Source: Acidimicrobiaceae bacterium
GTDB lineage: Bacteria > Actinomycetota > Acidimicrobiia > Acidimicrobiales > RAAP-2
Length of the DNA stretch: 46,122 nt
Direction of reading: 5' to 3'
Assembly: GCA_027314705.1 (NCBI GenBank)
Contig: DAHVAJ010000017.1
Span: 1-46,122 of the forward strand
The notes below the pieces were generated by a model. That model made no database searches and was not told where the DNA came from. It saw only the letters and a list, made by a program, of their open reading frames with translations. A program made the position numbers and the translations under genes. This document shows positions 1 to 18,413 of the stretch, piece after piece (positions within the stretch are counted from its first letter, which is position 1; every line of letters begins with the position of its first letter).

Positions 1-1110
1 TACGCGGCCCTCGGCGGCCGCGGCGGGTCGGGCGACGAGACCTTCGGGTTCGAGACCCGGCGGGCGTGGGAGAAGGAGCTCGCGACCGGCGGGTGGATCG
101 GGCTGGGTTGGCCCACGGCCTGCGGGGGGCGGGGCGCCACCGTCGCCCAGCAGGTCATCTTCAACGAGGAGTACGTCAGGGCCGACGCACCCGGACGGGT
201 GGGCGTGCTCGGCGAGGGCCTGCTCGGGCCCACCCTCGTCCAGTACGGCACGCCCGAACAGCAGGCCCGGTTCCTCCCGCCCATCCTGGCCGGCACCGAG
301 CTCTGGTGCCAGGGGTACTCGGAGCCCGACGCCGGGAGTGACCTGGCCAACGTGCAGACCAAGGCCGAGCTGGTCGGCGACGAGTGGGTGGTCACCGGGC
401 AGAAGGTGTGGACCTCCCTGGCCCACCAGGCCGACTGGTGCTTCGTGGTGTGCCGCACCGAGCCCGGCTCGAGCCGGCACCGGGGGCTCTCCTACCTGCT
501 GGTCCCCATGGACCAGCCCGGCGTCGAGGTGCGACCCATCACCCAGCTCACCCGGACCTCCGAGTTCAACGAGGTCTTCTTCGACGGGGCCCGGACCCGG
601 CGGGACCACGTGGTCGGCCAGCCCGGCGACGGTTGGCGGGTCGCCCTCGCCACCCTGTCCTTCGAACGGGGGGTCGGACTCCTCGGCCACCAGGTCACCT
701 TCCGGCGCGAGCTCGAGCACCTGGTCCGGGCGGCCCGGGAGCGGGGCCGGACCACCGACCCGGTCGTGCGCCAGCGCCTGGCCCGGGCCTACGCCGAGCT
801 CGAGGTGCTTCGCTACGACACCCTCCGCAGCCTGACCAGCTTCGACGGGCCGGTGGCGTCACCCGAGGCGTCGATCATCAAGCTCTTCTGGTCCGGGTGG
901 CACCAACGCCTCGGGGAGCTGGCCGTGGACGTGCTCGGCCCGGCCGGACTGGTGGCCGGCGCCCCGCCCTACGAGCTCGACGAGTTCCAGCGCACCTTCC
1001 TCTTCAGCCGGGCCGAGACCATCTACGGAGGCTCCGACCAGATCCAGCGCAACATCATCGGTGAGCGGGTACTGGGCCTGGCACCCGAGCCCAAAGGGGG
1101 GCAGCGATGA
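1..1110 (+). CDS. fadE30: acyl-CoA dehydrogenase, FadE30-like (5' end outside window)
   Basis: FAD-dependent acyl-CoA dehydrogenase that introduces an alpha,beta double bond. The open frame enters at base 1, so roughly the first 25-40 residues of a ~385-400 residue family protein are missing. Visible signatures are the middle-domain block WCQGYSEPDAGSDLANVQ, the GQKVWTSLAH segment, LSFERGVG (a Glu-Arg at the position used as catalytic base in isovaleryl- and FadE26-type enzymes) and the C-terminal YGGSDQIQRNIIGERVLG. These match mycobacterial FadE30, which acts on the CoA thioester of the steroid-derived indane propionate (5-hydroxy-HIP-CoA). The stop overlaps the next gene by 4 bases. The next two genes resemble IpdF and FadD3, supporting the assignment. 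Steroid specificity is inferred from remembered family similarity and context. Confidence 0.9.
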   Translation, partial: YAALGGRGGSGDETFGFETRRAWEKELATGGWIGLGWPTACGGRGATVAQQVIFNEEYVRADAPGRVGVLGEGLLGPTLVQYGTPEQQARFLPPILAGTELWCQGYSEPDAGSDLANVQTKAELVGDEWVVTGQKVWTSLAHQADWCFVVCRTEPGSSRHRGLSYLLVPMDQPGVEVRPITQLTRTSEFNEVFFDGARTRRDHVVGQPGDGWRVALATLSFERGVGLLGHQVTFRRELEHLVRAARERGRTTDPVVRQRLARAYAELEVLRYDTLRSLTSFDGPVASPEASIIKLFWSGWHQRLGELAVDVLGPAGLVAGAPPYELDEFQRTFLFSRAETIYGGSDQIQRNIIGERVLGLAPEPKGGQR

Positions 1111-1916
1111 CCGGCAGCACCGGACCGTCCCGACCGACCGGACCCCCGGCGGGCCACGGCCTCCTCGACGGCAAGGTGGTCGTCGTGACGGCGGCCGCGG
1201 GCACCGGCATCGGCTTCGCCACGGCCACGCGGTGCGTCGAGGAAGGGGCCACGGTGGTGGTCTCCGATGCCCACGAGCGCCGGCTCGGCGAGGCCGCCGA
1301 CGCCCTCGGTGACCTGCCGATGTCGGGGGGCGTGCGCCCGCTTGCCGTGCCCTGCGACGTGACCGACGAGGGGCAGGTCCAGCGGCTCTACGACGCCGCC
1401 GCGGCCGAGCACGGACGGTTCGACGTGGCCGTCAACAACGCCGGGCTCGGCGGCCAGGCCGCCGTGGTCGACATGACCGACGAGCAGTGGTCGGTGGTGC
1501 TCGACGTCACCCTGACCGGTACCTTCCGATGCACCCGGGCCGCACTCCGCCACTTCTACGCCCGCGACCGAGGAGGGGTGATCGTCAACAACGCCTCGGT
1601 GCTCGGGTGGCGGGCCCAGGCCCTCCAGGCCCACTACGCCGCGGCCAAGGCCGGGGTCATGGCCCTCACCCGCTGCAGCGCGGTCGAGGCCGCTCCCCAC
1701 GGGGTGCGGGTCAACGCCGTCGCCCCCAGCCTGGCCGTCCACCCGTTCCTCAACCGGGTCATGGCCGACGAGGAGCTGGCCGAGCTCAGCCGGCGCGAGC
1801 TCCTGGGCCGGGGCGCCGAGGTCTGGGAGGTGGCCAACGTGATCGTCTTCCTGGCCAGTGAGTACGCCACCTACCTGACCGGCGAGGTGGTCTCGGTCTC
1901 CAGCCAGCACCCCTGA
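1107..1916 (+). CDS. ipdF: short-chain dehydrogenase/reductase, IpdF-like
   Basis: NAD(P)-dependent SDR of 269 residues, the normal length for classical SDRs. The nucleotide-binding loop reads TAAAGTGIG instead of the usual TGxxxGIG. The same variant is what I recall for mycobacterial IpdF (Rv3559c), which oxidises a 5-hydroxyl on the CoA-bound C/D-ring fragment of cholesterol. NNAG is at about residue 110, and the catalytic Ser-Tyr-Lys set is spread over NNASVLGW...HYAAAKAG. The C-terminal LTGEVVSVSSQ fits the family. The ATG overlaps the upstream stop as ATGA, so translation is probably coupled to the FadE30-like gene. The SDR fold is certain; the IpdF role rests on sequence resemblance and gene order. 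Confidence 0.9.
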   Translation: MTGSTGPSRPTGPPAGHGLLDGKVVVVTAAAGTGIGFATATRCVEEGATVVVSDAHERRLGEAADALGDLPMSGGVRPLAVPCDVTDEGQVQRLYDAAAAEHGRFDVAVNNAGLGGQAAVVDMTDEQWSVVLDVTLTGTFRCTRAALRHFYARDRGGVIVNNASVLGWRAQALQAHYAAAKAGVMALTRCSAVEAAPHGVRVNAVAPSLAVHPFLNRVMADEELAELSRRELLGRGAEVWEVANVIVFLASEYATYLTGEVVSVSSQHP

Positions 1917-1946
1917 GCGGCCGGCCGCGCCGTGACGGCCATGCAC

Positions 1947-1961
1947 TACCCTGACGGCGTG
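1947..1961 (+). promoter_or_regulatory. probable leaderless promoter for the FadD3-like gene
   Basis: A TANNNT -10 box (TACCCT, 1947-1952) is followed by six bases and then GTG at 1959. This is the classic actinobacterial leaderless arrangement, with transcription starting at or next to the start codon. There is no Shine-Dalgarno sequence before the GTG. No convincing -35 is visible. Confidence 0.45.
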
Positions 1962-3608
1962 TCAGAAGTGGCCGACCCCCGCGGTGATCTGGAGTGGGGC
2001 ACGATCCCCGGCTTGGTGCAGGACGCAGCGGCCCGCTTCGGGTCGGCCGAGGCCCTGGTCGACCACCACGGTCCCGGCGGCACGGTCACGCGCTGGTCCT
2101 TCGACGAGCTGGCCGAGCGGGTGGCCGCCGCCACCCGTGCCATCGTGGCCAACGGCATCGACCGGGGCGACCGGATCGCCGTGTGGGCCCCGAACTGCGC
2201 CGAATGGGTGGTGGCCGCCCTCGGCGCGGTGGGTGCCGGGGCGCTCCTGGTCCCGCTCAACACCCGCTACAAGGGGTCCGAGGCGGCGTACATCCTGCGT
2301 GCCTCGGGGGCCCGTCTCCTCTTCACCGTCCAGGGGTTCCTGGGCACGGACTACCCGGCCCTCCTCAAGGAGGCCGTCCGGGCCGGAGACCCGGTGCCCG
2401 ACCTCGAGCGGGTCGTCGTGCTGCGGTCAGCGGGGTCGTCGTCGGCCGCCCGGGGCGACCAGGTGGTCCCCTGGGACGCCTTCGTGGCCGAGGGCGGCGC
2501 CTGTTCGGAGGACGTGGCCGCCGGCCGCACCGCCTCCCTCACGCCGGGCGACCTGGCCGACCTCCTCTTCACCTCGGGGACGACCGGGCATCCCAAGGGG
2601 GTCATGACCACCCATGCCCAGACGCTGCGCACCTTCGCCACCTGGTCCGAGGTGGTCGGCCTGCGAGCCGGCGACCGCTACCTCGTCGTCAACCCGTTCT
2701 TCCACACCTTCGGGTACAAGGCCGGGATCCTCGCCTGCCTCATGACCGGGGCCACCATGGTGGCCGAACCCGTCTTCGACGTGGACGTGCTGCTCGCCCG
2801 GATGGCCGACGAGCAGATCTCGGTGCTCCCCGGGCCTCCGACCATCTTCCGGGCCATCCTCGACCGTCCGGACCGCGCCGCCCTCGACCGCTCCAGCCTC
2901 CGCCTGGTGGTGACCGGGGCGGCCCTCGTGCCCGTGGAGCTGGTCGAGTCCCTCTGGTCCGACCTCGGCGTCGAGACGGTGCTGACCGCCTACGGCCTGA
3001 CCGAGGCCACCGGGACGGTGACCATGTGCCGCCGGGGGGACTCGGCCGCCGTCATCTCGGGGACCTCGGGCCGGGCCATCCCCGACGTCGAGGTCCGGAT
3101 CGTCGACGCCGAGGGGGTCGAGCTGGCCCGCGGGGACGCCGGCGAGCTGGTGGTGCGCGGCTACAACGTGATGCAGGGGTACTTCAACGACCCCGACGCC
3201 ACCGAGGCCGCCGTCGATCGCGACGGATGGCTCCACACCGGCGACGTGGCCGTCATGGACGCCGCCGGCAACATCACCATCACCGACCGGCTGAAGGACA
3301 TGTACGTGAGCGGCGGGTTCAACGTCTACCCGGCCGAGGTGGAGGCGGTGCTCCGGCGCCGGGAAGGGGTGGCCCAGGTGGCGGTGGTCGGCGTCCCCGA
3401 CCGTCGCATGGGCGAGGTGGGCCTGGCCGTCGTCGTCCCGGCCGAGGGGGCCGACCGTACCGCGCTGGCCGCAGACCTGGCCGCGGCCGCCCGCCAGGAG
3501 CTGGCCAACTTCAAGGTGCCACGCCGCGTCGAATTCGTGGATACCCTGCCGGTCAACGCCTCCGGCAAGGTGCTCAAGCGCGAGCTGCGCGAGCGCCTCG
3601 CCCGGTGA
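1959..3608 (+). CDS. fadD3: acyl-CoA synthetase, FadD3-like (HIP-CoA ligase)
   Basis: ANL-superfamily ligase (549 residues) that activates a carboxylate through an acyl-adenylate to its CoA thioester. Visible motifs are LLFTSGTTGHPKG (P-loop A3), the substrate-region block NPFFHTFGYKAGILACL, YGLTEATG (A5), GWLHTGDVA (A7), DRLKDMYVSGGFNVYPAEVE (A8) and a C-terminal NASGKVLK with the catalytic lysine. NPFFHTFGYKAGI, LPGPPTI and the SGGFNVYPAEVE form are characteristic of FadD3, which ligates CoA to HIP, the C/D-ring remnant of steroids. I chose GTG 1959 because a -10 box sits just upstream; GTG 1932 and ATG 1941 are in frame and remain possible. It lies 42 bases after the IpdF-like gene, matching the mycobacterial KstR2-regulon neighbourhood. 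Confidence 0.9.
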   Translation: MSEVADPRGDLEWGTIPGLVQDAAARFGSAEALVDHHGPGGTVTRWSFDELAERVAAATRAIVANGIDRGDRIAVWAPNCAEWVVAALGAVGAGALLVPLNTRYKGSEAAYILRASGARLLFTVQGFLGTDYPALLKEAVRAGDPVPDLERVVVLRSAGSSSAARGDQVVPWDAFVAEGGACSEDVAAGRTASLTPGDLADLLFTSGTTGHPKGVMTTHAQTLRTFATWSEVVGLRAGDRYLVVNPFFHTFGYKAGILACLMTGATMVAEPVFDVDVLLARMADEQISVLPGPPTIFRAILDRPDRAALDRSSLRLVVTGAALVPVELVESLWSDLGVETVLTAYGLTEATGTVTMCRRGDSAAVISGTSGRAIPDVEVRIVDAEGVELARGDAGELVVRGYNVMQGYFNDPDATEAAVDRDGWLHTGDVAVMDAAGNITITDRLKDMYVSGGFNVYPAEVEAVLRRREGVAQVAVVGVPDRRMGEVGLAVVVPAEGADRTALAADLAAAARQELANFKVPRRVEFVDTLPVNASGKVLKRELRERLAR

Positions 3609-14546: not shown

Positions 14547-15755
14547 CTAGGACAGGCGCTCGACGATCATGGCCATGCCTTGGCCGCCACCCACGCACAT
14601 CGACTCGAGGCCGACGGTCGTGCCCGTGTCGTCGAGGGCGTTGAGCAGGGTGGTCATGATGCGGGCACCGGTCTGGCCGAAGGGATGGCCGAGGGCGATG
14701 GCCCCACCCCGTACGTTGAGCTTGTCCCAGCTGATGCCCAGCTCCCTGGCCGAGGGGACCACCTGGGCGGCGAAGGCCTCGTTGATCTCGACGAGGTCGA
14801 CGTCGTCGATGGTCATGCCGGCGCGGGAGAGGACCTGGCGGATGGCGTCGACCGGGCCGAGGCCCATGATCTCCGGATTGAGGCCGGAGACGGCGGAGGC
14901 CACGATGCGGGCCAGGGGGGTGATCCCGAGCTGGTGGGCCCGAGTGTCGCTCATCACCACGACGGCGGCGGCACCGTCGTTGAGCGGGCAGGCGTTGCCG
15001 GCGGTGACCGTGCCGCCCTCGCGGAACACCGGCCTCAGCCCGGCCAGGGCGTCGAGCGTCGTCCCCGGCCGGGGCCCGTCGTCCCTCCGCACGACGGTGC
15101 CGTCGGCCAACGTCACCGGGATGATCTCGCGCTCGAAGAAGCCCGACTCGATGGCCGCCCCGGCCCGCTGCTGGGAGCGGAGGGCGTACTCGTCCTGCTC
15201 CTGGCGGCTCACCTTCTTGAGCTCGGCCACGTTCTCGGCCGTCTGGCCCATGGCGATGTAGACGTCGGGGAGCGCGCCCTCGAGCGGGGTCCACGGTTCG
15301 CCGGCGGCGGGGGTCCGGGCCGTGGTGCGGGCCTCCCCGTCGGCGAAGGCGGGATTGTGCGGTCCGACGTCGGCGGCGCCGTGCCCGTACCGGCTGACCG
15401 TCTCGACCCCGGCGGCGACGAAGACGTCGCCCTCGCCGGCCTTGATGGCGTGGGCGGCCATCCGGATGCTCTGGAGCGACGAGGAGCAGTAGCGGTTCAC
15501 GGTCACTCCGGGCACGTCGGGCAGACCGGCCAGGAGGGCGGCCACCCGTGCCATGTTGTACCCGGCTTCGCCGGCCGGCTGGCCCGAGCCGAGGATGACG
15601 TCCTCCACCGAGTGCGGGTCGAGCGCCGGCACCTTGGCCAGGACCTCTCTGATGACCAGGGCGGCGAGGTCATCGGGGCGGCAGTCGACCAGCGAGCCCT
15701 TGTTGGCCCGACCGATCGGGGTCCTTCCGGTGGCGACGATGACGGCATCGGGCAT
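14547..15755 (-). CDS. thiolase (acetyl-CoA acyltransferase, FadA type)
   Basis: Thiolase of 402 residues that cleaves 3-ketoacyl-CoA (or condenses acyl-CoAs). The nucleophile is Cys90 in NRYCSSSLQS. The second-site residues are His in GHPFGQTGARI and Cys in CVGGGQGMAMI. The loop NEAFAAQ is also present. The start ATG 15755 has GAGGAG six bases upstream; a longer frame reaches 16064 but crosses the divergent regulatory region with low-complexity sequence. It is transcribed away from the FadE26/27-like pair across an intergenic region holding a KstR-type site. A role in thiolysis of steroid side-chain or ring CoA esters is plausible, although the active-site block is not that of FadA5 or FadA6 as I remember them. 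Confidence 0.92.
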   Translation of the reverse strand: MPDAVIVATGRTPIGRANKGSLVDCRPDDLAALVIREVLAKVPALDPHSVEDVILGSGQPAGEAGYNMARVAALLAGLPDVPGVTVNRYCSSSLQSIRMAAHAIKAGEGDVFVAAGVETVSRYGHGAADVGPHNPAFADGEARTTARTPAAGEPWTPLEGALPDVYIAMGQTAENVAELKKVSRQEQDEYALRSQQRAGAAIESGFFEREIIPVTLADGTVVRRDDGPRPGTTLDALAGLRPVFREGGTVTAGNACPLNDGAAAVVVMSDTRAHQLGITPLARIVASAVSGLNPEIMGLGPVDAIRQVLSRAGMTIDDVDLVEINEAFAAQVVPSARELGISWDKLNVRGGAIALGHPFGQTGARIMTTLLNALDDTGTTVGLESMCVGGGQGMAMIVERLS

Positions 15756-16062
15756 GGGGCGCTCCTCGGTGTGGGCGGCGGGAACCGCAGTGGTCGTCGG
15801 GCCGCACGGCGGCCCCGGGGACTCACCGGGGGTCACCCGAGCGGCGGGCGGTAGCACCGGGCGGACCGGGGCCACCGGGCAGGCTACCGGAGCGACGTGC
15901 CCGCTGCCTGAGGCAACAGGCGGCGGTGGCGCCGGCGAGGGGGCGAATGTAACGTGTTCTAGTCGCCGCCCACCGGCTCGGCCGGTGGGTACTCGGGTGG
16001 GCGCGGGGACCGCCGTCCGCGCCCACCGGCGGGTGCCGGGCGGGAACCACCGGGAGGGACCC
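15756..16062. other. divergent intergenic region, thiolase / FadE26-like
   Basis: This 307-base gene-free stretch holds a single clear signal, the KstR-type palindrome at 15948-15961. On the plus strand TCTAGT (15958-15963) can serve as a -10. On the minus strand TACATT (15946-15951) can. Both overlap the palindrome, so one bound dimer could silence both directions. GGGAGG precedes the plus-strand ATG at 16063. Confidence 0.55.
15948..15961. promoter_or_regulatory. KstR-type operator (TnnAACnnGTTnnA)
   Basis: TGTAACGTGTTCTA fits every fixed position of TnnAACnnGTTnnA, the 14-bp operator of the TetR-family cholesterol repressor KstR of mycobacteria and rhodococci. It lies about 100 bases before a FadE26-like gene, which belongs to the KstR regulon in M. 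tuberculosis. It overlaps possible divergent -10 boxes. No kstR gene is in the window. Confidence 0.7.
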
Positions 16063-17238
16063 ATGGAGATCGGCTACACCGAGGAGCAGGAGGCGCTCCG
16101 TGACGAGCTCCGCGCCTACTACGCCACACTGCTCACGCCCGAGGTGGAGGCGCAGCTGGCGGCCGGCCACGGCATCGGCGCGGACATGCGCCGGGTGGTC
16201 AGACAGATGGCCGCCGACGGGTGGCTGGGCATCGGCTGGCCGAAGGAGTGGGGCGGCCAGGGCCGCTCGGCCATCGAGCAATTCATCTTCTTCGACGAGT
16301 CCATGCGGGCCGGCGCTCCCGTGCCGATGCTCACGATCAACACCGTGGGGCCGACCATCATGCAGTTCGGCACCGACGAGCAGAAGGCGTCCTTCCTGCC
16401 CCGGATCCTCGCCGGCGACATCCACTTCTGCATCGGCTACACGGAGCCCGCCTCCGGCACCGACCTCGCCTCGCTGCAGACCAGGGCCGTCCGCGACGGC
16501 GACGAGTACGTGATCAACGGCCAGAAGATCTACACCTCCCTGGCCGGCGACGCCGACTACATCTGGCTGGCCACCCGCACCGACCCCGACGCCCCCAAGC
16601 ACAAGGGCATCTCGATGTTCATCGTCCCCATGGACACTCCGGGCATCAAGGTCGTCCCCATGCGCCTGCTCGGGGACCACAACATCAACTACACCTTCTA
16701 CGAGGACGTCCGGGTGCCCGCGGCCAACCTGGTGGGCGGGGAGAACCAGGGGTGGACCCTCATCACCAACCAGCTCAACCACGAGCGGGTGACCCTGTGC
16801 TCCCCGGGGATCATCGAGCGGGCCCTCACCGACGTGCGGGCGTGGGCGCAGGCCACCAAGCTGGCCGACGGCCGCCGGGTCGTCGACCAGGAGTGGGTCC
16901 AGGTCCACCTGGCCCGGATCCACGCCCGGCTCGAGTTCCTGAGGCTCATCAACTGGAAGGTGGCGTGGACGGCCACCCAGGGACAGCTCGACGTGGCCGA
17001 CGCCTCGACCATCAAGGTCTTCGGCACCGAGTTCTACCTCGAGGCGTTCAAGCTGCTCATGGAGGTGGTGGGCCAGGCGGGCTATCTGGCCAAGGGCTCG
17101 CCCGAGGCCGTCCTCGCCGGCCGCCTCGAGATGTACGCCCGCAGCCTCGTCATCTTGACCTTCGGCGGCGGCACCAACGAGATCCAGCGGGACCTCATCG
17201 CCATCTTCGGCCTGAACCTGCCCCGCTCGCTGCGCTGA
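16063..17238 (+). CDS. fadE26: acyl-CoA dehydrogenase, FadE26/ChsE4-like subunit
   Basis: Alpha-type subunit of a heteromeric steroid acyl-CoA dehydrogenase, 391 residues. The N-terminus IGYTEEQEALRDELRAYY, the block WPKEWGGQGRSAIEQFIFFD, the FAD-side segment GYTEPASGTDLASLQTRAV and FGGGTNEIQRDLIA closely resemble mycobacterial FadE26 (ChsE4). The presumed catalytic base is Glu241 in NQLNHERV, the helix-G position used in this subfamily. ATG 16063 has GGGAGG upstream; the longer frame crosses the regulatory region and is rejected. The partner subunit gene follows 47 bases later. In M. tuberculosis the ChsE4-ChsE5 heterotetramer dehydrogenates 3-oxo-cholest-4-enoyl-CoA-type side-chain esters. 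Here the substrate is inferred by homology. Confidence 0.93.
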   Translation: MEIGYTEEQEALRDELRAYYATLLTPEVEAQLAAGHGIGADMRRVVRQMAADGWLGIGWPKEWGGQGRSAIEQFIFFDESMRAGAPVPMLTINTVGPTIMQFGTDEQKASFLPRILAGDIHFCIGYTEPASGTDLASLQTRAVRDGDEYVINGQKIYTSLAGDADYIWLATRTDPDAPKHKGISMFIVPMDTPGIKVVPMRLLGDHNINYTFYEDVRVPAANLVGGENQGWTLITNQLNHERVTLCSPGIIERALTDVRAWAQATKLADGRRVVDQEWVQVHLARIHARLEFLRLINWKVAWTATQGQLDVADASTIKVFGTEFYLEAFKLLMEVVGQAGYLAKGSPEAVLAGRLEMYARSLVILTFGGGTNEIQRDLIAIFGLNLPRSLR

Positions 17239-17285: not shown

Positions 17286-18413
17286 ATGGACTTCGCACTG
17301 AGTGAGGAGCAGGAAGCCGTGCGCGAGCTGGCCGACCGCATCTTCACCGACCTCTCGACCCACGAACGGCTGCGCGAGCTCGAGGCCGAGCCGGACGGCA
17401 CTCGGTTCGACGGCAGGCTCTGGGCCGAGCTGGCCTCGGCCGGCCTGCTCGGCATCGCCCTGCCCGAGGAGGTGGGCGGCGCCGGCCTCGGCTTCGTCGA
17501 GGTGGGACTCCTGGCCGAGGCGGCCGGGCGCACGGCGTCGTACGTGCCCGTCGTGGAGACCCTGGCCGCGGCCGCCCCGGCGGTCGCCGTCTTCGGCTCG
17601 GACGACCAGCGCCGGCGGTGGCTGCCGGGCGTGGTCGAGGGCCGGTCGATCCTCACCACGGCCCTGGTCGAACTGGGGGGGAGCCCGCTGGCTCCGGCGG
17701 CCGCGGCCGAGTCCGACGGCGACGGCTGGATCCTCTCGGGGGTCAAGGCCTGCGTGCCGTCGGGCCTGGTGGCCGACCTGTTCCTGGTGCCGGCCCGGGT
17801 GGGCTCCGACGACCTCGGCGTGTTCCTGGTCCCGGCCGCGGCCGGGGGCGTGTCCATCGGGCGCCAGACGGCCAACTCGGGCCAGCCCGAGGGGCTCGTC
17901 ACCTTCGATGCGGTGCGGCTCGGGCCGGACGCCCTGCTCGGCACCCCGGCCGACGGGCCGACCATCGTGACCTGGCTCCTCCTGCGCACGACCGCGGCCC
18001 TGGCCGTGGTCGAGGCGGGAGCCGCCGCCGCCGCACTGGCCCTGGTGGCCGAGTACACGAAGACCCGAGAGCAGTTCGGCAAACCCATCGCCACCTTCCA
18101 GGCCGTCGGCCAGCGGGCCGCCGACGCCTTCGTCGACGCCGAGGCCATCCGGCTGACCGCCTGGCAGGCGGCCTGGCGGATCGCCGAGGGCCTGCCGGCC
18201 GACAAGGAGGTGGCGGTGGCCAAGTTCTGGGCGGCCGACGGCGGCCAGCGGGTCGTCCACGCCGCCGTCCACCTCCACGGCGGGGTGGGCGTCGACCGGG
18301 ACTATCCGCTCCATCGTCACTTCCTGCGGACCAAGCACATCGAGCTCACCTTGGGTGGGGCCACCGACCAGCTCCTGCGGCTCGGGGCCGCGCTCGCCGC
18401 CGAGCCCGCCTGA
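17286..18413 (+). CDS. fadE27: acyl-CoA dehydrogenase, FadE27/ChsE5-like partner subunit
   Basis: Partner subunit of 375 residues, with the acyl-CoA dehydrogenase fold but divergent active-site sequence. It starts MDFALSEEQEAVRELADRI, has GIALPEEVGGAGLGFVE, lacks the usual YxxSEPxAGSD loop in the middle domain, and ends with a helical domain around YTKTREQFGKPIATFQAVG and HLHGGVGVDRDYPLHRHF. In the ChsE4-ChsE5, ChsE1-ChsE2 and ChsE3 systems the beta-type subunit contributes FAD contacts, while the alpha subunit carries the base. The same division seems to apply here, because no FERG/HER glutamate is seen. AGGAGG precedes the ATG. Tight spacing to the FadE26-like gene supports a heterotetramer. 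Confidence 0.92.
   Translation: MDFALSEEQEAVRELADRIFTDLSTHERLRELEAEPDGTRFDGRLWAELASAGLLGIALPEEVGGAGLGFVEVGLLAEAAGRTASYVPVVETLAAAAPAVAVFGSDDQRRRWLPGVVEGRSILTTALVELGGSPLAPAAAAESDGDGWILSGVKACVPSGLVADLFLVPARVGSDDLGVFLVPAAAGGVSIGRQTANSGQPEGLVTFDAVRLGPDALLGTPADGPTIVTWLLLRTTAALAVVEAGAAAAALALVAEYTKTREQFGKPIATFQAVGQRAADAFVDAEAIRLTAWQAAWRIAEGLPADKEVAVAKFWAADGGQRVVHAAVHLHGGVGVDRDYPLHRHFLRTKHIELTLGGATDQLLRLGAALAAEPA

Follow-up and report, generated by a model that had tools for sequence, protein, structure and literature searches.

What does a 14-bp palindrome do between a thiolase gene and a pair of acyl-CoA dehydrogenase genes in an Acidimicrobiaceae bacterium? A sequence-only reading of the window, by which we mean the entire analysed stretch of 46,122 bases, had taken it for an operator of the cholesterol repressor KstR, and had proposed that steroid control by a KstR orthologue extends to this lineage and also covers the divergent thiolase. 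Our analysis upholds much of that reading, in that a KstR-family regulator, FadE26/27-type neighbours, a conserved motif and further sites at FadA5 and other lipid genes were found; a steroid signal is possible, as is control of the thiolase. The site is very probably a real KstR-type operator, ordinary in kind, and the best reading of the sequence comparisons is that it would lie, as a KstR operator, over the core promoter of fadE26 (Table 1).

Table 1. Predicted regulatory elements and genes discussed in the text. Positions are those of the window, except for the regulator gene, which lies on another contig of the host genome (G000).
Feature	Position	Strand	Basis
KstR-type operator TGTAACGTGTTCTA (palindrome TnnAACnnGTTnnA), predicted	15948..15961	.	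Exact match; conserved before fadE26-like genes; 14-mer in Table 3 of Kendall 2007
−35-like element GTGGCG of the fadE26 promoter, putative	15926..15931	+	Conserved; some relatives have TTGGCC in this register; function inferred
−10-like element TAACGT within the operator, putative	15950..15955	+	18 bp after the −35-like element; fits TAnnnT; inferred
Thiolase, NCBIfam PRK07851 type, divergent neighbour	14547..15755	-	NF005890, 668.8 bits (cut-off 580)
FadE26/ChsE4-type acyl-CoA dehydrogenase	16063..17238	+	Best PDB match 4x28_A, 488.5 bits, E 1.3e-145
FadE27/ChsE5-type acyl-CoA dehydrogenase	17286..18413	+	Best PDB match 6wy8_A (E 1.2e-83), 4x28_D (E 7.7e-70); start by gene caller
KstR-family TetR regulator	G000:C116, about 2142-2741	-	KstR is the best NCBIfam model

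Results

The site and its neighbours

Both the location of TGTAACGTGTTCTA and its agreement with the palindrome TnnAACnnGTTnnA at all eight fixed positions, as given by the sequence-only reading, were borne out exactly. The site is the sole exact occurrence of TnnAACnnGTTnnA in the window, where 0.03 would be expected by chance, and shuffling of the window produced at least one match in 3 of 100 trials. Near matches elsewhere in the window amount to four 7/8 sites, every one of them within a called gene, in keeping with the earlier remark that the other promoter regions lack a second good match. The 307-bp divergent intergenic region that holds the site separates the thiolase from the acyl-CoA dehydrogenase pair; 192 bp lie between the site and the thiolase ATG, and 101 bp between it and the first ATG of the pair.

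We take PDB entry 4x28, listed under the title ‘Acyl-CoA dehydrogenase’ only, to be the ChsE4–ChsE5 (FadE26–FadE27) complex, and the thiolase of the window to be FadA6-like. The FadE27-type gene is probably co-transcribed with the FadE26-type gene. For the latter, a start at 15997 put forward by the gene caller was rejected because the PDB match already begins with the first residue encoded from the ATG at 16063. At the edge of the window, positions 1–3608 hold in a row an acyl-CoA dehydrogenase gene cut by the contig end, an SDR gene (PRK07831) and a gene for a FadD3-family ligase, the last two (1107–3608) both over their cut-offs; the row presumably resembles the fadE30-ipdF-fadD3 genes.

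In M. tuberculosis nomenclature we take Rv3504 to be fadE26 and the Rv3545c/Rv3546 site to be that of fadA5. The sites at Rv3503c/Rv3504 and Rv3545c/Rv3546 are reported as EMSA positive for KstR in Kendall 2007 (PMC1995591), and the claim that the palindrome adjoins homologues of known KstR targets thus holds good for the FadE26/27 type. Table 3 of that paper also contains the identical 14-mer twice: at MSMEG_5925, which was RT-qPCR positive, and at Rv3525c/Rv3526, for which binding had not been determined.

Conservation upstream of fadE26-like genes

An exact motif was present within 420 bp upstream of the fadE26-like gene in 43 of 80 loci, 19 of the 80 carrying the identical 14-mer, and 12 more loci had a 7/8 match; as a control, 11 palindromes obtained by permuting its letters were each found in 0–2 of the 80. 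It is this conservation in orthologous upstream regions that marks the window site as more than chance. Across 18 loci (L034–L051) site identity, 7/8 variants included, was 96%, against 48% in the left and 36% in the right flank, and among the 29 loci measured the operator stood between 15 and 181 bp from the start codon. A plasmid of Tsukamurella tyrosinosolvens on which kstR is annotated served as a positive control; there, TAGAACTTGTTCTA starts 24 bp before a fadE26-like gene of 56% identity.

The motif also tends to occur together with a KstR homologue. When KstR presence was defined as E <= 1e-15 to NF033703, 42 of the 80 loci had both, 1 the motif only, 15 KstR only and 22 neither (Fisher 6e-9, not corrected for kinship). 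Among the 15 of 57 KstR-bearing loci without an exact site, 7 have a 7/8 match and one is L106, for which the upstream sequence comprises 42 bp only and which was scored as motif-negative in this table and omitted from the kinship-corrected test. With kinship taken into account on supported branches of the FadE tree, the 7 independent pairs that differ in motif gave no significant association (median p 0.25); on average 3.4 pairs agreed, 0.0 were opposite and 3.6 showed no difference in KstR. The direction of the co-occurrence agrees, and the pairs are too few for it to be significant once kinship is counted.

Further matches in the genome and genus

The host genome contains 9 exact matches to the motif, 3 intergenic and 6 in genes, and in 14 genomes of the genus 232 motif matches were counted against 222 for the reversed control, that is, there is no genome-wide excess. 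Besides the window site, the intergenic matches lie between genes for a FadD-type ligase and a luciferase-like monooxygenase, and between another FadD-type ligase gene and an SDR gene. The best NCBIfam model for the FadD beside the luciferase-like gene is steroid-22-oyl-CoA synthetase, at 671.7 of 900 bits. A 7/8 site precedes FadA5 in the host genome (NF005889, 690.3 bits against a cut-off of 515; PDB FadA5, E 5e-172), and in five fetched relatives (L197–L200, L202) FadA5 genes over the cut-off are preceded by 8/8 sites. Another 7/8 site, TAGAACACGTTTCG, was seen at L145:6601–6614 (G000:C38), 11 bp before the called start of a PRK07798-type acyl-CoA synthetase gene.

Sixteen stretches with recurring sites were picked because the same letters recurred in the genus, and they consequently illustrate conserved context and not an unbiased rate. 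Five of them lend specificity no support: L201, L204, L193, L203, whose site is coding, and L205, near which no gene was called. In L193, P450 and amidohydrolase genes instead flank the 14-mer known from the FadD/luciferase-like site. In L201 and L204 (1501–1514 in each; genomes G012 and G011, respectively) the exact palindromes TAGAACGCGTTCTA and TAGAACAGGTTCTA are intergenic and immediately precede a lumazine synthase gene; in L201 a gene of AIR-carboxylase type occupies the opposite side of the site. Lumazine synthase is not a KstR target that we know of.

A divergent KstR-family regulator

The sequence-only reading would have fallen had the genome held no KstR-like TetR regulator, and it recommended a search for a KstR homologue. 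One is present. The host genome (2.69 Mb, 131 contigs, 93% complete) has 24 TetR_N matches, 20 of which were scanned with NCBIfam, while the KstR model was run against the whole genome. The protein encoded on C116 scores 156.3 bits with the NCBIfam KstR model (NF033703), below the equivalog cut-off of 280, and is thus a divergent member. Over residues 11–192 it matches four PDB sequences (E 8e-33 to 1e-32); three bear the name KstR, and 3mnl is described just as a probable TetR-family regulator. In its 33-residue helix-turn-helix, 24–27 positions are identical to those of ten KstRs over the NCBIfam cut-off, a comparison that leaves out L168 (no usable row). With KstR as the nearest characterised protein, a full-length match and a conserved helix-turn-helix, the C116 protein belongs to the wider KstR family. 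The runner-up for the KstR model in the genome is a TetR protein on C108, at 55.5 bits, for which KstR is likewise the best NCBIfam model. A further regulator in the host genome, MftR of the mycofactocin system, is encoded at L017:1081–1716 (G000:C95) and scores 234.8 bits against an NCBIfam cut-off of 224.9.

KstR homologues of about 150–165 bits occur in all 14 genomes of the genus. The 23 other genomes of the family divide into 10 with a homologue at E <1e-40 and 13 with weak matches only; the KstR cut-off of 280 was exceeded in none of the 61 genomes of the relatives search and in 10 of 296 drawn from the phylum. Second copies in the f57 genomes, a family whose first copies are over the cut-off, score as high as the C116 protein (198.5 and 159.3 bits), and this we counted against the KstR assignment. 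In a tree of 99 KstR-family rows, which fixes neither the root nor the distinction of orthologues from paralogues, the host’s own family forms a clade with support 100/100, and a split supported at 96/94 separates the Acidimicrobiales side from a side with f57, the f57 second copies, f43, f52 and the Tsukamurella KstR. By this split, the C116 regulator appears not to have been acquired recently from the f57/f52/Tsukamurella side.

Autoregulation was sought in the promoter of the C116 gene, and no site of at least 7/8 was found within 350 bp. Elsewhere in the tree an operator precedes the kstR-family gene in 36 of 99 rows, among them L124 of the own-family clade; the stretch searched ran from 350 bp upstream of the first position of the aligned row to 30 bp downstream of it, this position not being a mapped start codon. 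Exact operators before their own KstR-family genes were found in 10 of 10 rows of f57, in 11 of 11 rows of f52 and in 9 of 11 metagenome-assembled genomes (MAGs) of Myxococcota/Deltaproteobacteria, and permuted palindromes in at most 1 of the 99. The f52 rows (L239–L244, L246–L250), a second KstR-like lineage, have TAGAACAAGTTTCA in all 11 cases; the MAG genes with an operator of their own are L156, L158–L160 and L162–L166, with TGAAACGTGTTTCA in 7 of 9 and a second 7/8 copy in L162 and L163. Four of the 11 MAGs have an exact site before fadE26 as well (L089, L094, L104, L113), and in 7 it is absent, one of these having 42 bp of upstream sequence only. The taxonomy of the 11 MAGs is that of the record labels (Myxococcota, Myxococcales, Polyangiaceae, Deltaproteobacteria or proteobacterium), and misbinned contigs are possible.

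Promoter architecture and proposed mechanism

The −35-like element of Table 1 is part of a pattern in which TGGC stands 21 bp before the operator in 14 of the 29 loci aligned; in 1000 shuffles no offset gave more than 4. The −10-like element fits the −10 consensus TAnnnT, and in four relatives (L058, L061, L062, L066) the start codon follows TAACGT by 7–8 nt, which would fit a leaderless transcript. Judged from these alignments, the stretch from −10 to +1 of fadE26 would lie under the operator.

On the thiolase strand a −10-like TACATT can be drawn, but the conserved base is also part of the longer KstR palindrome (Kendall 2007). No conserved −35-like block was found in the right flank of L034–L051 (mean identity as given above), and we make no claim for a thiolase promoter element. 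In 21 of the 43 motif-bearing loci a divergent thiolase was not found in the upstream DNA, 4 of these 21 having less than 500 bp upstream; because of this, we consider that the operator goes with fadE26. The idea that it also controls the divergent thiolase has the position of the site in its favour and these 21 loci against it, and such control may at most be suggested from position.

We propose with considerable confidence that the 14-mer is a functional operator for the divergent KstR-family TetR repressor encoded on C116, which would occlude the fadE26-fadE27 promoter and be released by an acyl-CoA. From the site, its conservation, the regulator gene and the motif before other side-chain genes, all of them observed, we infer binding, occlusion, the identity of the effector and any effect on the thiolase. 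A repressor dimer on the palindrome would cover the −10 element and the start region of the fadE26-fadE27 promoter and so keep RNA polymerase off it; an acyl-CoA effector arising from side-chain breakdown would bind the repressor, which would then leave the DNA, and the operon would be expressed. The effector of mycobacterial KstR is given as a cholest-26-oyl-CoA in a review (PMC6678751).

Discussion

Could an AT-rich palindrome have arisen in this GC-rich promoter by coincidence, unconnected with any regulator? The raw counts speak for this, with 6 of the 9 matches in the host genome falling in genes and no excess over the reversed control in the genus, and a motif equally frequent inside genes is what the sequence-only reading had named as evidence against itself. 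These counts are outweighed by conservation: a match was hardly to be expected in the window, the motif stands in 43 of the 80 orthologous upstream regions, in 19 of them as the identical 14-mer, and the site has been kept at widely differing distances from the start codon while its flanks are much less conserved. On the conservation of the site over its flanks and across the 80 loci we reject chance, which we consider highly unlikely. It is more conceivable, yet still improbable, that the site is real and bound by a TetR-family protein other than that of C116, either a KstR paralogue or an unrelated one. There are two dozen TetR_N matches to choose from, the C108 protein also has KstR as its best model, and the C116 protein is under the KstR cut-off. 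Against this stand the distance between the two best candidates (156 bits, next 55), with C116 by far the closest to KstR in the genome, and the sharing of the operator before their own genes by members of the C116 family on distant branches, including L124 in the own-family clade.

The SDR and FadD3-family ligase genes at 1107–3608 might point to KstR2 instead, as we take them to resemble genes of the KstR2 (C/D-ring) regulon. The KstR2 operator is described as AnCAAGnnCTTGnT in Kendall 2010 (PMC3068626). This consensus has no exact match in the host genome and is not fitted by the site at 15948–15961, so that a KstR2-type site is rejected and receives scarcely any credence from us. An operator for the KstR-family repressor of C116 is the reading that we retain.

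Compared with the KstR regulons of Mycobacterium and Rhodococcus, the host shares the operator consensus, the identical 14-mer and a KstR-family regulator in the genome. It differs in that the regulator is divergent and has no obvious site before its own gene, that the thiolase is divergent from fadE26, and that searches of the genome yielded no ring A/B genes of KstD, KshA or HsaC type. The KstR2 regulon (PMC3068626) is alike in placing C/D-ring genes of the IpdA type found here under TetR control, and unlike in its operator. The KstR-like regulators of f52 and of Myxococcota/Deltaproteobacteria have the same class of palindrome before their own genes, with different outer bases (TAGAACAAGTTTCA and TGAAACGTGTTTCA, respectively).

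Whether the signal is a steroid is a question on which the gene content of the host genome speaks in two directions. In favour are side-chain genes (FadA5, the FadE26/27 type and a FadD nearest to the steroid-22-oyl-CoA synthetase model) together with the FadD3-family ligase in the window and C/D-ring genes of the IpdA type in the genome, where a PRK07938-type enoyl-CoA hydratase gene adjoins one for a CoA-transferase alpha subunit matching 6co6 (E 2.6e-104). We take the hydratase to be EchA20 and the 6co6 match to be IpdA. On the other side, ring A/B genes were not found as part of the regulon in the host genome, which has no KshA_C, no HsaC-type dioxygenase at E 1e-10 and, as far as found, no KstD type; of its five FAD_binding_2 matches at E 1e-8 three were scanned, the top two being succinate dehydrogenase and L-aspartate oxidase and the third reaching 163 of 789 bits with the KstD model. 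All 14 genomes of the genus have a KstR homologue, yet KshA_C is present in only 4 of them and HsaC-type proteins of >190 bits, all below the cut-off, in 2. Missing contigs are not a likely cause of the absence of KshA_C, because 8 of the 10 genus genomes that are at least 90% complete lack it. A steroid signal, as proposed in the sequence-only reading, is therefore no more than possible.

In published work the origin of KstR has been placed at the ancestor of Mycobacteria and Rhodococcus (PMC3388012). In N. simplex a KstR has been assigned by reciprocal BLAST (PMC7807495), so that within Actinomycetes its occurrence outside Mycobacteriales is no longer new. Neither Acidimicrobi- nor Deltaproteobacteria nor Myxococc- occurs in the main text of PMC4810484. 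A literature search with the terms Acidimicrobi, steroid, cholesterol and KstR returned no paper joining them, and among the matches listed no title concerned KstR in Acidimicrobiales or in Myxococcota/Deltaproteobacteria; as far as searched, the operator has not been reported in this lineage or in Myxococcota/Deltaproteobacteria. Tentatively, and with more doubt than belief, we entertain the idea that KstR and its operator form an ancient pair, older than the split of the Actinomycetota classes and reaching Myxococcota/Deltaproteobacteria, which would here have been kept without KstD/KshA/HsaC ring opening and might now answer to side-chain acyl-CoAs of another or a partly degraded isoprenoid.

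The interest of the site lies in its evolutionary reach and in the missing ring A/B genes. A regulon seemingly kept without these genes is a natural case that bears on what the regulator senses. The triple of regulator, operator and target in Acidimicrobiales, together with the KstR-like gene and operator in Myxococcota/Deltaproteobacteria, would either push the control system back in time or show its movement between phyla, and control by KstR may have a longer history and a wider distribution than has been assumed.
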